Shown here: piece by piece, positions 2,188 through 11,959 of the stretch
How positions within the stretch are numbered: the first letter of the stretch is position 1
How the letters are laid out: each line of letters begins with the position of its first letter
Origin: an uncultured SAR116 cluster alpha proteobacterium
GTDB taxonomy: Bacteria; Pseudomonadota; Alphaproteobacteria; Puniceispirillales; Marisalimonadaceae
Reading direction: 5' to 3'
DNA length: 41,060 nt
Assembly (NCBI GenBank): GCA_902514865.1
Contig: CABXSI010000004.1
Span: forward strand, 1-41,060
Translations under genes and position numbers: made by a program
The notes under the pieces: model-generated
Told to the model about the DNA's origin: nothing
What the model saw: the letters and a program-made list of their open reading frames with translations, nothing else
Database searches by the model: none

Positions 2188-2244
2188 TAAAATGGTGCCG
2201 TCAACTGGATTTGAACCAGTGACCTCGTCATTACCAATGACGCG
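2188..2244 (+). repeat. Left 57-bp direct repeat (att-like)
   Basis: Base-for-base identical to 4479-4535. It runs from 5 bp beyond the tRNA CCA end through the T arm, variable region and anticodon arm, and stops just inside the D stem. Beyond 2244 similarity to the tRNA ends abruptly. Confidence 0.95.
2193..2244 (-). pseudogene. tRNA-Thr 3' fragment
   Basis: The 52 nt equal nucleotides 25-76 of the intact tRNA-Thr at 4484-4559, including the complete anticodon arm with GGT, the T arm, the 3' acceptor strand and CCA. The D arm and 5' acceptor strand are missing, so it cannot fold as a tRNA. It marks the distal boundary of the inserted segment. Confidence 0.93.
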
Positions 2245-2265
2245 GAAATCATACTCAGAGCAGCA

Positions 2266-2307
2266 ATAACACCCATAAATAATCTAGTATAATCAATTGG
2301 GTGTTAT
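2266..2307. repeat. Perfect 10-bp inverted repeat
   Basis: ATAACACCCA at 2266-2275 is exactly complemented by TGGGTGTTAT at 2298-2307, with a 22-bp AT-rich spacer. It starts 22 bp after the truncated tRNA. No U-tract follows on either strand, so it is a poor terminator; a protein-binding site is more likely. Role unknown. Confidence 0.7.
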
Positions 2308-2507
2308 AATATCTAAACCAAAGATGTTAAAAGGTGTGTTTTGGCACAATCCTGACACACATATCTACAAACTTTACTGAAATTTAAGAAAAACTTTTTT
2401 AAATAAAATGTTTAATATTTAAGCCAATTATATATGTAAATTTAAAGTACATTGATTGTAACTTCAATTTACTGTTTAAATCGTAATTAGTTAACAAGTT
2501 ATGTTGT

Positions 2508-2993
2508 TTGAGTAATGAAATGAATATGTCTACAAAACCAGTAATTTTAGAAAATTTTGAAAACTATTTTTATCGTCGTACTTTAAAATCTTTGTGTTCT
2601 TATGAACTAAAAATATATCAAGCCAGAATTGATCGTTTAGACACAAAAATGCAAAGATATTTTAACTCTACCCCTATTAGAAATGCTTTTGCATCTCTAA
2701 TGGTTATTGGTGCTTGTAATAATAAATCATATACAATTACTGAAATTGTTAACAATCTTAGAAGTAACAGGCAGTCAATTTCTACAATGGTAGATGAATG
2801 TAAAAAAGAGGGCTGGATAATAGTAATTAAGAATGGAAATAAAGTTCAATGTAAAGCATCAGAAAATTTGGTTGAAGGTTTTCATGATTATATGACATTT
2901 AGTAAAGAAATTTCTAAGGATTATTTTAATAGTTTAGAATTACTAAAAATAAAAAATATAATGTCAAATGAGTTGTCAAAGAACAGCAAATGA
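2508..2993 (+). CDS. Winged-helix (MarR-like) DNA-binding protein
   Basis: A 161-residue soluble protein. Residues about 77-105 (ITEIVNNLRSNRQSISTMVD and following) look like a helix-turn-helix, followed by an EGWIIV...GNKVQC stretch that fits a beta wing, with helices on both sides. This is the layout of MarR-superfamily and related small winged-helix regulators, but I cannot assign a named family. The TTG start at 2508 gives the longest frame. ATG codons at 2520 and 2526 are equally possible because no clear Shine-Dalgarno sequence is visible. It lies inside the tRNA-Thr-flanked segment, 273 bp ahead of the TRAP receptor gene on the same strand, so it could regulate that gene. This is inferred from position only. 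Confidence 0.7.
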   Translation: MSNEMNMSTKPVILENFENYFYRRTLKSLCSYELKIYQARIDRLDTKMQRYFNSTPIRNAFASLMVIGACNNKSYTITEIVNNLRSNRQSISTMVDECKKEGWIIVIKNGNKVQCKASENLVEGFHDYMTFSKEISKDYFNSLELLKIKNIMSNELSKNSK

Positions 2994-3266
2994 ATGTAAA
3001 TCTGTTAGGTATTGTTTATTTTTTAATCATTATTTAAATTAAAAAATGGAATTTCGAGATGAATTTCTTGGAATTCCTCCCTTAACTTTCAGAGCAATGT
3101 AAAGTCCTTTTACAGTTATTATCGTAACTATGTAAAGCTGCAATACATTGTATGACAACAAATCTTAAAATAGTCTTATATAGTTTGGTTTTGTAAGACA
3201 TGCAAAATCACAGAGTAAATTTGAAATTATTCAAATTTTTAGATTAATCATTTTGGGGAGATCAAT

Positions 3267-4307
3267 ATGAAATTATTTTTAGGTGCAGCTGTTATCGCTG
3301 CGACTAGTCTAGTGGCTATATCAGCTCAAGCTGGTGAAAAGTTACGATATAAAATGCAAAGTACTTGGGGTAGTCAGGTTGCCATTAACGGTGAAGCTGC
3401 TGTTTATTTTTCTAACAAAGTGAAAGAGGTTTCAGGCGGTGATGTAAGAGTAAGATTTCATGAGCCAAATGCACTTGTGCCTTCATTAGAAGTTTGGGAT
3501 GCTGTCAAGAACGGGTCAGTTGATGCAGGTTTTACTTCTCCTGGTTATCATGCTGGAAAAATTCCAGCTGTTTCATATTTTGCAGCTGTTCCTTTTGGAC
3601 CAGGTGGAAGTGAATATATGGGATGGATGGAATATGGTGGTGGAAACCAGCTTAAAGAAAAAATTTATGGTGAATATGGTCTTATGCCGTTGAATTGTGG
3701 TATGCACGCCCCAGAGACTTCAGGTTGGTTTAGAAAAAAAATCAACAAAGTTGAAGAAATGAAAGGTATGAAAATGCGTTTCTTCGGGCTAGGCGCAATG
3801 GTAATGACTAAGCTTGGTGTATCAACACAGCTACTAGCAGGTGGAGATATTTATCCAGCACTAGAAAAAGGTGTTATTGATGCAACGGAATTTTCTATGC
3901 CTACACACGACTTAAGTTATGGTTTTTATCAGTTAGCTAAATATAACTATTTCCCAGGCTGGCATCAGCAAACATCTATTATTGAGTTGCTTTTAAATAA
4001 AAAAGCTTGGAATGGTTTAACAAAAACACAACAGTCAGTCATTAAAACTTCTTGCGATGCTACAACAATTTGGACATTTGTCAGATCTGATGCAAAGCAG
4101 GTACCTGCAATGCGTGAGCTTGAGAAGAAAGGCGTAACATTTGTAACATGGCCTGATTCTGAAATTGCTAAGTTTAGAAAAGCTTGGGAAGAAGTTGTAA
4201 AAGAGAAGTCAGCGAGTGATCCTTTATTTAAAGAAATCACTGCTAGCTACGACGCTTTTAGAAAAGACTACAGCATTTGGTCGTCTAAAGCTTATCTAAA
4301 AAGATAA
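3267..4307 (+). CDS. TRAP transporter solute-binding protein (DctP family, 2-oxo-acid/TakP-like)
   Basis: Periplasmic receptor of 346 residues with a Sec signal peptide (positive N-terminus, hydrophobic core, cleavage near SAQA-GE at residue 22). The core has the DctP fold markers: an Arg at about 171 (GMKMRFFG) at the position that binds the substrate carboxylate in this family, and GGDIYPALEKGVIDATEF at 192-209. These resemble the 2-oxo-acid-binding TakP branch, so a monocarboxylate or 2-oxo acid is the likely ligand (inference). The start is fixed by a strong GGGGAG seven bases upstream. No DctQ or DctM gene is adjacent; the receptor would need membrane subunits encoded elsewhere. It is islet cargo, followed by its own terminator, and appears less AT-rich than its flanks. 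Confidence 0.93.
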   Translation: MKLFLGAAVIAATSLVAISAQAGEKLRYKMQSTWGSQVAINGEAAVYFSNKVKEVSGGDVRVRFHEPNALVPSLEVWDAVKNGSVDAGFTSPGYHAGKIPAVSYFAAVPFGPGGSEYMGWMEYGGGNQLKEKIYGEYGLMPLNCGMHAPETSGWFRKKINKVEEMKGMKMRFFGLGAMVMTKLGVSTQLLAGGDIYPALEKGVIDATEFSMPTHDLSYGFYQLAKYNYFPGWHQQTSIIELLLNKKAWNGLTKTQQSVIKTSCDATTIWTFVRSDAKQVPAMRELEKKGVTFVTWPDSEIAKFRKAWEEVVKEKSASDPLFKEITASYDAFRKDYSIWSSKAYLKR

Positions 4308-4330
4308 AATTAATTTTATTCACTATTTTA

Positions 4331-4359
4331 AGCACACCAGTTTAGGTGTGCTTTTTTTT
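4331..4359 (+). terminator. Rho-independent terminator after the TRAP receptor
   Basis: AGCACACC (4331-4338), a 6-nt loop, then GGTGTGCT (4345-4352) running into an eight-T tract. It lies 24 bp after the TRAP receptor stop codon. Confidence 0.9.
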
Positions 4360-4372
4360 GTTAATAATTTTG

Positions 4373-4390
4373 TGACACAAATTTGACACA
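4373..4390 (+). repeat. Two TGACACA direct repeats 11 bp apart
   Basis: TGACACA at 4373-4379 and 4384-4390; the first is embedded in a near-palindrome TTTGTG-A-CACAAA. A matching pair (TGGCACA, TGACACA) with the same 11-bp period and orientation sits at 2342-2359 near the other end of the islet. These could be recombinase arm-type sites, but the heptamers are short. Confidence 0.4.
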
Positions 4391-4478
4391 GATAATTTTT
4401 ATATTTTAATAATTAAAGCCTTTAGTATATAACCAACATCTTAAATTTTTAGGAAATAAGGAAGATTTTACCTAATGA

Positions 4479-4535
4479 TAAAATGGTGCCGTCAACTGGA
4501 TTTGAACCAGTGACCTCGTCATTACCAATGACGCG
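4479..4535 (+). repeat. Right 57-bp direct repeat (att-like)
   Basis: Identical to 2188-2244. It overlaps the 3' two-thirds of the functional tRNA-Thr. Confidence 0.95.
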
Positions 4536-4559
4536 CTCTACCGCTGGAGCTATGACGGC
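4484..4559 (-). tRNA. tRNA-Thr (anticodon GGT)
   Basis: 76 nt with encoded CCA. Acceptor stem GCCGTCA pairs with TGACGGC; D stem GCTC/GAGC; anticodon stem CGTCA/TGACG with loop TTGGTAA; T arm ACTGG-TTCAAAT-CCAGT; discriminator A. The anticodon GGT reads ACC and ACT. All stems pair, so it is intact. Its 3' 52 nt are duplicated at 2193-2244. Confidence 0.98.
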
Positions 4560-4674: not shown

Positions 4675-4836
4675 ATGACTAAAAAAAATATTAAAAATGA
4701 TGAATTATCTACATCTTTAAAAAATAATTTAAAATTGAGAAAAAAACAAATTATAGATAGAGATAATAAAAAGATTATAGGTAAAAGAACAAAAAAAATT
4801 GGTGTCTTAGGGTTAGATTTAAATGTCAAATCTTAA
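4675..4836 (+). CDS. Small basic protein upstream of murA
   Basis: A 53-residue frame from ATG 4675 that overlaps the murA start by 14 bp, which suggests translational coupling. The protein is hydrophilic and Lys-rich, with LKNNLKLRKKQIIDRD in the centre. That resembles the LRxNLxRRKxQxR pattern I recall in short uncharacterised alphaproteobacterial proteins, some of them near murA. No signal peptide or membrane segment. Function unknown. Its size and basic charge would allow nucleic-acid or ribosome binding, but nothing proves it. Confidence 0.6.
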   Translation: MTKKNIKNDELSTSLKNNLKLRKKQIIDRDNKKIIGKRTKKIGVLGLDLNVKS

Positions 4837-10813: not shown

Positions 10814-11959
10814 TTATCCAAAAATCCTTTGAGTCATGTCTGGAAGATTAGCGTTAAAAAAAGCGTTTTTAACAATTTGTTTATGTTCACTATCTAGAAC
10901 TCTAGCAAGAATTGATGCATAAACAGCCCTAGAATCAATCGAAGAATCTAAGTCACGACCTTCAAATAAATTCTTTTTTTCTAGTCCAGGCCAATCTCCT
11001 ATTATTTTGGATTTATGCAACAAACCGCCAGCCATAAGAATGGCGGAACCATAACCATGTTCTGTTCCAGATCCTCCATTTTGATCAACTGTTCTTCCAA
11101 ATTCTGTAAGTGAAACAATTATTGTGTCTTCAAAAGCAGAACTTAATTCATAATTTAGAGTGCCAATTATCTGATCAAACTGTTTTAATTTTTTTGCATG
11201 CTCTCCATTGTCACCGCCCTGATCAGCATGAGTGTCAAATCCTGCTATATCAAACACCGCAATACTTGCTCCGTCAGGTTGAGCTAGTTGTTGACCAGCA
11301 ATCTTAGCTAATCTTTTTACATCTTGACTTGAATTCTTACTAGTTTGCATCATGGCAATCGGCCTTTTACGTATGGTACGTAAAACGTTGCTTAACACTT
11401 CATCTTCATGATAGTCAGCAGCTAAAATTTTTAATGTTTCATCACTAGGCAATCTATTAGCTGAAGGCATGAAATTATCTAGATCTCTCCCACCTCTTAA
11501 AATTAGTGGCATTGGAAGTGAGATTGATAAACTTTTTTTATTTGCGTTTTCAAGAGCTCTTCCAAGCCACCCAGTCTTATCATAATAAGGTACAGTTCCC
11601 CCACTTTCCATTAGGTATTGTCCTTCAAAATGTGACCTACCTGTATATGGAATAGATGTCGCGTGAAATATAGATGCCTTATTTTTATCCCATAATTTTT
11701 TAAAATTTTTAAGTTGTGGATGGAGTGCAAAATTAGAAGTTATTTTTATAGGTTTATCTACTCCAATATCTGGTCTAGCTTTTCCAAGAATGTTATTACC
11801 TATAAAAGGGACTGCTGTAAGGCCATCCATTCCGCCGCGTAACATTATAACAACAAGGTTTTTTTTTGTTGAAGTTGAACCAAAGACTCTTGATATCATT
11901 GGAGCGGAGACTATTAATGATGCTGAACCGGACAAAAACATGCGTCTTGAAACATTCAT
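10814..11959 (-). CDS. DUF1501 family exported protein
   Basis: 381 residues with an N-terminal SRRMFLSGSASLIVSAP segment that reads as a Tat signal (SRRxFL then a hydrophobic stretch), so it is probably folded before export. MLRGGMDGLTAVPF, PYTGRSHFEGQYLMESG, DIAGFDTHADQGG and LTEFGRTVDQNG..GTEHGYGSA are DUF1501 hallmarks; the family is related to the alkaline phosphatase/sulfatase fold. Biochemical function is unknown. Its ATG overlaps the DUF1800 stop (ATGA), so the two are co-translated. Confidence 0.93.
   Translation of the reverse strand: MNVSRRMFLSGSASLIVSAPMISRVFGSTSTKKNLVVIMLRGGMDGLTAVPFIGNNILGKARPDIGVDKPIKITSNFALHPQLKNFKKLWDKNKASIFHATSIPYTGRSHFEGQYLMESGGTVPYYDKTGWLGRALENANKKSLSISLPMPLILRGGRDLDNFMPSANRLPSDETLKILAADYHEDEVLSNVLRTIRKRPIAMMQTSKNSSQDVKRLAKIAGQQLAQPDGASIAVFDIAGFDTHADQGGDNGEHAKKLKQFDQIIGTLNYELSSAFEDTIIVSLTEFGRTVDQNGGSGTEHGYGSAILMAGGLLHKSKIIGDWPGLEKKNLFEGRDLDSSIDSRAVYASILARVLDSEHKQIVKNAFFNANLPDMTQRIFG

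Follow-up and report, generated by a model that had tools for sequence, protein, structure and literature searches.

Bacteria of the SAR116 cluster form an abundant, streamlined lineage of the ocean, and it is an open question how such streamlined cells exchange small numbers of niche genes when they have so little mobile machinery. The question is raised at a transfer RNA (tRNA) gene, tRNA-Thr(GGT), in an uncultured SAR116 alphaproteobacterium of the family Marisalimonadaceae (assembly GCA_902514865.1, here genome G000; 1.08 Mb, 60.6% complete). There, a stretch of 41,060 nucleotides (contig CABXSI010000004.1, positions 1 to 41,060, the window) holds a 2.2-kb insertion, hereafter the islet, between the intact tRNA gene and a displaced copy of its 3' end. 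What is this islet, and how did it come to lie there? It is a real, modular cargo islet without an integrase and with conserved end sequences. We consider it reasonably likely to be a non-autonomous integrative islet resembling a cis-mobilizable element (CIME), with cargo held between attachment (att) sites and moved by an integrase acting in trans. The exchange question becomes testable with a minimal element of this sort, which short arm repeats define and whose orthologous site is empty in some genomes, filled in others and filled with alternative cargo in another.

A cargo islet bounded by tRNA-Thr(GGT)

The islet interval sits between pheT, which ends at 2167, and murA, which starts at 4823. 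A perfect 57-bp direct repeat, with copies at 2188-2244 and 4479-4535, brackets the islet proper (2245-4478; 2,234 bp) and is not a chance match, since within the first 8 kb the next-best direct repeat reaches just 73% identity over 33 bp. ARAGORN calls one complete tRNA, the minus-strand tRNA-Thr(GGT) at 4484-4559, and none at the other repeat copy. There, positions 2193-2244 match nucleotides 25-76 of tRNA-Thr, to the CCA end, at 100%, and the repeat extends five bases past the 3' end of the tRNA. The Rfam tRNA model scores the fragment region at 31.5 bits, barely above the gathering cut-off of 29, as expected of a partial tRNA, and the intact gene at 66.6 bits.

The additional DNA is located 3' of tRNA-Thr and contains two open reading frames (ORFs), at 2508-2993 and 3267-4307. 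Family and fold searches of these ORFs show the cargo to be DctP, a receptor of tripartite ATP-independent periplasmic (TRAP) transporters, and a MarR-like protein, with no integration or transfer genes. Two integrase queries against the islet return a best E value of 0.49, that is, no recognised integrase. The preliminary description of the locus, made from the sequence alone, had read it in the same way: an exact repeat with one copy in a functional tRNA and the other in a truncated 3' fragment, extra DNA on the 3' side, no recombinase, and a cargo of a nutrient-uptake receptor (now assigned to PF03480) with a regulator-like gene. Each of these points holds. The features along the window are the following.

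2188-2244, minus strand: displaced copy of the 57-bp repeat, comprising the tRNA-Thr 3' fragment (2193-2244) and five flanking bases; putative right attachment site (attR) core, with 0 substitutions in 52 nucleotides.
2267-2306, no strand assigned: block conserved between the fragment and the right arm (alignment), with an 8-bp inverted repeat, TAACACCC/GGGTGTTA, at its end (by eye).
2342-2359, minus strand: right arm-type repeat pair, TGGCACA-N4-TGACACA (motif scan, five-islet alignment).
2378-2493, no strand assigned: segment that recurs elsewhere in the genus and family, there at the end of an unrelated small gene cassette (sequence matches).
2508-2993, plus strand: MarR-like winged-helix protein of 161 residues, a probable transcription regulator (sub-cut-off MarR_2 match, AlphaFold model, PDB fold matches).
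3267-4307, plus strand: orphan TRAP substrate-binding protein DctP (PF03480).
4373-4390, minus strand: left arm-type repeat pair, TGACACA-N4-TGACACA (motif scan, five-islet alignment).
4479-4535, minus strand: 57-bp repeat copy overlapping the functional tRNA, with five bases 3' of it; putative left attachment site (attL) core (exact repeat).
4484-4559, minus strand: functional tRNA-Thr(GGT), the integration target (ARAGORN; Rfam).

Filled, empty and alternative states at one site

The pheT-murA interval, which the preliminary description had proposed to align in relatives, was searched in the 40 genomes of the genus, G000 included, and 39 gave some match. Site state was scored in the 30 genomes for which the tRNA-Thr locus was available, again with G000 among them; ten more genomes of the family that carry the tRNA, for which no locus was available, were left out. 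Twenty-four of the 30 sites hold a single tRNA copy, five are filled, and one (G027), where the contig ends inside the tRNA, is ambiguous. The distance from the pheT stop codon to the tRNA is ~8-28 nucleotides in 22 of the 24 single-copy sites, ~133 in G013 and ~200 in G040, the last with a pheT match of just 44%. The regulator and dctP are both present in three of the filled genomes: G000, G002 and G003. The cargo of G036 differs: its 2.26-kb islet encodes a 654-residue caspase-domain protein (PF00656) with a lipoprotein-like start (by eye) and has a mutated tRNA fragment. The block at 2267-2306 is largely retained in this islet in the alignment. The fifth genome, G005, is split by a contig gap, with the regulator on a contig that ends just before the dctP position and other DNA (an 88-residue ORF) behind the tRNA on a second contig. 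The preliminary description would have been refuted had all close relatives carried the same two genes here, with no empty or alternative-cargo sites; it was not, as empty sites and one different cargo occur.

All five filled genomes fall into a single clade of seven in the pheT tree (support 100/100), and the number of independent insertions is therefore uncertain. The empty pair G007 and G016 groups with G000 inside that clade (95/88), and the well-supported branches of the tree force at least two changes of state.

Elsewhere in G036 (contig G036:C3, L046, 11960-14510), an orphan DctP gene has as its neighbour the gene of a protein that shares 64% identity, across 396 residues, with the caspase-like protein of the tRNA-Thr islet, so that both cargo kinds of the tRNA-Thr site adjoin on the G036 chromosome.

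Arm-type repeats at the islet ends

Within the 41-kb window, TGACACA-N4-TGACACA with up to two mismatches matches twice, at 2342-2359 and 4373-4390, against 0.17 matches expected and with two matches in 0 of 100 shuffles, for a pattern picked after the repeats had been seen. Both pairs lie just inside the islet, the right one 97 bp from the fragment and the left one 93 bp from the 3' end of the tRNA. Across the five islets all 18 columns of the left arm are invariant despite differing spacer and cargo, compared with 37 of 93 columns between the tRNA and the arm and 2 of 17 beyond the arm (Fisher p 8e-8, with columns taken as independent and the arm picked after being seen). The right arm is less conserved, with 13 of 18 columns invariant. 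With T at the variable position, the sequence occurs as an exact 18-mer in five of 136 genomes of the order, solely at the five tRNA-Thr islet sites. A control with the pattern reversed carries no weight, since the tandem motif resembles its own backward reading and the control is thus not independent.

These pairs, read on the opposite strand as TGTGTCA-N4-TGTGTCA, look like the arm sites of an integrase. Their position, their 11-bp period, the occurrence of such pairs at both ends of the integrase-bearing islands described below, and two IMG/VR stretches with paired arms all suggest this reading. Searches with the arm sequences could reveal more islets, and the polymorphism of empty and filled sites can be counted in read sets.

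The two IMG/VR contigs each have two arm-type pairs, whose starts are separated by 236 bp in L325 and by 182 bp in L326, a layout that would suit a phage attachment core between them. In L325 an integrase-like ORF immediately precedes the pairs, and a tRNA-Leu-like stretch, seen by eye and without a complete tRNA reported by ARAGORN, is enclosed by them.

Integrase-bearing islands and other islets of the genus

Matches to PF00589 occur in all 40 genomes of the genus, among the matches listed. Genes for tRNA-Arg(acg), tRNA-Arg(tcg) and tRNA-Val(gac) are followed by islands of 4.9-9.4 kb that encode an integrase class of ~330 residues and end in the 3' fragment of the same tRNA. The tRNA-Arg islands share one order: the tRNA, ~70 bp, TTTGACACAGATTTGACACAG, the integrase start, cargo, the same repeat pair, ~70 bp and the fragment. 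The tRNA-Val islands have TGTCACA pairs instead (by eye).

A tally of elements was drawn from loci of at least 5 kb that were sampled by integrase, arm or dctP matches and not at random. It holds 10 distinct elements with the ~330-residue integrase class and eight in which neither integrase query has a match. Of these eight, tRNA-Thr accounts for four, tRNA-Arg(acg) for two (G018 and G006), and tRNA-Phe (G003) and tRNA-Arg(tcg) (G033) for one each. One tRNA-Leu element with a weak integrase match was set aside. The integrase-less elements measure 1.9-3.0 kb. The G018 islet has both arms and a 92% fragment. A 1.9-kb islet at tRNA-Arg(acg) in G032 (G032:C5, L244, 8062-10065) has both arms, a 100% fragment and just an 18-residue integrase remnant consisting of the first codons; judged by this sequence, it may be a snapshot of how integrase-less islets arise. 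The tRNA-Phe(gaa) islet of G003 (G003:C11, L034, 920-3944) encodes a tetratricopeptide repeat protein (by eye) and a cytidylyltransferase, has no match to the integrase queries, and is the second islet of that type in one genome. The tRNA-Arg islet of G006 (G006:C1, L248, 5444-8366), also integrase-less, carries a PnrA-like solute receptor of the ATP-binding cassette type (PF02608) and a 2-oxoglutarate-Fe(II) oxygenase. No arm pair is seen at its own ends, and directly behind its fragment a second element follows in tandem, with an arm repeat and an apparent broken integrase start (by eye).

A tentative broader picture, possible though somewhat doubtful, is a two-tier mobile system in SAR116, with ~330-residue integrases on islands of 5-9 kb at several tRNAs and a pool of integrase-less islets of 2-3 kb swapped in trans at fixed tRNA sites, for which tRNA-Thr would be a one-cargo exchange slot. 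The islets would then consist of att arms and one to a few cargo genes, such as solute receptors, a caspase-like protein and surface-sugar enzymes.

Divergence of cargo, flanks and tRNA fragment

Comparison of G000 with G002 gives the regulator a synonymous divergence (dS) of 0.11 (0.05-0.19) and dctP one of 0.23 (0.17-0.31); in the flanks it is 0.38 (0.31-0.46) for pheT, 0.52 for hisG, 0.50 for hisD and 1.40 for murA. The corresponding values between G000 and G003 are 0.15 for the regulator, 0.38 for pheT and 1.20 for murA, and between G000 and G005 the regulator reaches 0.23 (0.14-0.36) and pheT 0.40 (0.33-0.48). Thus the regulator lies below pheT in all three comparisons and dctP in one of two. 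Because murA is far more diverged than pheT in both G002 and G003, a recombination breakpoint near tRNA-Thr is indicated.

The 52-nucleotide fragment has 0 of 52 changes in G000, G002 and G003. Had it drifted since these lineages split, ~9 changes would be expected in the three together, a figure from our own arithmetic on the pheT terminal branches (0.055, 0.067 and 0.051) for lineages picked after the data had been seen. The unmutated fragment has three possible explanations: the insertion is recent, the fragment is used again as an att site, or the tRNA keeps it intact through gene conversion.

How the islet may have been placed and moved

Site-specific integration through a tyrosine recombinase would account for the polarity, for a tRNA that is restored while a 3' fragment is displaced, and for paired arms at both ends. 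Another element would have supplied a tyrosine integrase, and this enzyme would have joined the chromosomal tRNA to a circular DNA that bore the 3' part of tRNA-Thr(GGT); the incoming copy would have restored the tRNA and left the displaced 3' part at the far end. The TGTGTCA-N4-TGTGTCA pairs would be integrase arm sites, retained though the integrase gene is absent, and the cargo would be exchangeable, with DctP and the MarR-like regulator in three genomes and the caspase-like protein in another. As the islet has no recognisable recombinase, the enzyme acted in trans or was lost. We think that the islet was probably once moved by an integrase in trans and probably can still be moved.

Several observations weigh against this. 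The preliminary description had suggested a recombinase in trans and a search for one beside tRNA-Thr; action in trans remains plausible, whereas a cognate tRNA-Thr integrase was not found. None targeting tRNA-Thr(GGT) appeared at the integrase loci examined out of a search of 136 genomes of the order; many of these loci showed no complete tRNA, and other integrase classes were covered only in part. The tRNAs seen beside the ~330-residue class are Arg, Val, Met, Gly and Pro, none of them Thr. Among 385 genomes of the class, drawn evenly, the exact geometry of tRNA and arm occurs in G000 alone; IMG/VR gives 0 matches to the tRNA-plus-arm pattern and 0 to the tRNA-Thr core, and megablast of phage records with the 52-nucleotide core gives none. 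The 18-mer is present in seven IMG/VR stretches and so is not specific to the lineage, and, with the tRNA as reference, the arms of the islet and of the tRNA-Arg islands point in opposite directions. The G+C content of the islet (0.314) is near that of the window (0.324), an ordinary composition that gives no mark of foreign origin. Divergence is not uniformly low either: dctP has a dS of 0.76 between G000 and G003, above that of pheT, and the regulator and pheT intervals overlap in G005. The fragment is decaying, with several changes, in G005 and G036. Finally, one old insertion followed by loss and replacement could explain five filled genomes in one clade of seven.

The tRNA-Arg integrases, whose arms differ from those of the islet at one of 18 bases, were considered as enzymes directly serving it. 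This candidate is weakened by the reversed arms, the different core tRNA and the occurrence of the 18-mer in seven IMG/VR stretches. In a close-relative search, IMG/VR relatives of the tRNA-Arg integrase show 27-28% identity, and the best phage records ~35%.

The confinement of the filled sites to one clade, the decayed fragments and the failure to find a helper in IMG/VR or the 385 genomes would also suit a dead relic. An old integrase-bearing island would have lost its integrase in the ancestor of the seven-genome clade and been inherited vertically since, with deletion in G007 and G016, gene replacement in G036 and nothing moving now; at tRNA-Arg, the G032 islet with its integrase remnant is an example of such a loss. 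We regard this as unlikely, given the unchanged fragment in three species where ~9 changes in all would be expected (with the reservation on lineage choice given above), the low dS of the regulator in every comparison and of dctP in one of two, the clean single tRNA of G007 and G016, and arm sequence retained where the spacer is not. Homologous exchange, in which one integrase-made insertion now spreads between species and is lost through recombination in the flanking genes, we likewise hold to be improbable. It draws on the step from a pheT dS of 0.38 to murA values of 1.40 (G002) and 1.20 (G003) relative to G000, with breakpoints near the tRNA, and exchange of flanks with an empty genome can also give clean loss. 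Alone, it does not explain arm conservation across different cargo or the unmutated fragment, and the greater divergence of murA than of pheT in these genomes means that shared flanks were not carried along on that side.

Single-cell assemblies can be chimeric, and the G005 assembly is broken next to dctP. An assembly artefact through a chimeric contig, or a local segmental duplication that made the tRNA fragment, is nevertheless contradicted by the same junctions in three assemblies (G000, G002 and G003) and by the existence of orthologous empty sites, and we consider either highly improbable.

Comparison with known systems

Islets of this kind have counterparts among described elements. CIMEs are defined as elements that have lost integration and transfer genes and kept their att sites (PMC5704250). 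Similarly, the islet at the tRNA 3' end keeps putative attL and attR without integration or transfer genes, and sites of this type also serve other elements of the lineage. CIMEs are described there as decayed integrative and conjugative elements (ICEs) or integrative and mobilizable elements (IMEs), often in tandem with a mobilising element; at the islet's tRNA-Thr neither a conjugative parent nor a tandem helper is seen, and the cargo varies between genomes at one site. The islet thus has the anatomy of a CIME, whereas mobilisation by a related element has so far no helper at tRNA-Thr to point to; a tandem arrangement does occur at a tRNA-Arg, in G006. ICEs and IMEs themselves require their own integrase and conjugation or mobilisation genes, whereas both ORFs of the islet belong to other families.

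The ssrA islands of Dehalococcoides, 15 of which have no integration module and were proposed as possible CIMEs (PMC3146451), resemble the islet in using one RNA gene as the site, in the lack of an integration module in some, and in their niche genes; they differ in having a serine recombinase system and a transfer-messenger RNA target. Tycheposons of picocyanobacteria, to which the preliminary description had likened the locus, have a tyrosine recombinase and sizes of 4-200 kb as described in PMC10872708. The islet is likewise bounded by a tRNA, with nutrient-function cargo in a marine oligotroph. The comparison stands as to a cargo-only tRNA islet, whose arm-like end repeats are shared with integrase-bearing islands, and fails as to tycheposon membership, because at 2,234 bp and without a recombinase the islet lacks both the size and the recombinase features. 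The phage satellites known as phage-inducible chromosomal minimalist islands (PICMIs), defined by integrase, AlpA, primase and Fis genes (PMC10803314), are also small integrated islands that need a helper; the islet has none of these four genes.

Within the genus, the islet compares with the tRNA-Arg and tRNA-Val islands of 5-9 kb, which share the tRNA target, the displaced 3' fragment and tandem arm repeats of period 11 at both ends. They differ in their ~330-residue phage-type integrase and their other tRNA targets, and, at tRNA-Arg, in arms reversed relative to the tRNA. No report of such islets in SAR116 appears among the matches listed from the open-licence literature; as far as seen, the kind is known, and the form and the host are new.

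The DctP receptor and the MarR-like regulator

DctP matches PF03480 at E 3.5e-44 (151.7 bits; cut-off 23.4). Neither dctQ nor dctM is present in the islet, which makes this DctP an orphan there. It shares 86.6% amino acid identity with the chromosomal DctP of G000, whose gene adjoins those for DctQ and DctM, and it is therefore reasonable to suppose that the islet protein is probably an alternative receptor for the TRAP transporter encoded elsewhere. A close DctM is present in G000, G005, G007, G016 and G036. In G002 and G003 no close chromosomal DctP or DctM was found, possibly because these assemblies are incomplete, and no close DctP was found anywhere in the G005 assembly. In the DctP protein tree, the islet copies of G000 and G002 pair (100/99), and the G003 copy falls outside this pair at a weakly supported position.

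The 161-residue ORF has no Pfam or NCBIfam match at 1e-3 and scores 15.1 bits against MarR_2, under the cut-off of 27. Its AlphaFold model has a confident winged-helix core and low-confidence ends (mean predicted local distance difference test score 68), and the top PDB fold matches are mostly MarR-family proteins, at template modelling scores of 0.4-0.5. The model suggests a probable transcription regulator; with a MarR-like fold and a Pfam score below the cut-off, the label is kept at 'MarR-like'. In G003 the regulator gene contains, near its end, a 68-bp insertion of pheT sequence (G003:C11, L034, ~11819-11886) that lengthens the reading frame.

Upstream of the regulator gene, the segment at 2378-2493 was considered as a conserved RNA or att part of the islet and rejected: it also borders an unrelated cassette, is missing from the G036 islet and has no overlapping Rfam match at E <= 1. 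That cassette, found elsewhere in the genus (L040-L044, L051 and L052), encodes proteins of 205, 124 and 86 residues, not every one at each locus. Beside a segment of this type, a tRNA-Met-like stretch is seen by eye in L044, and a tRNA-Ser lies ~240 bp off in L051.

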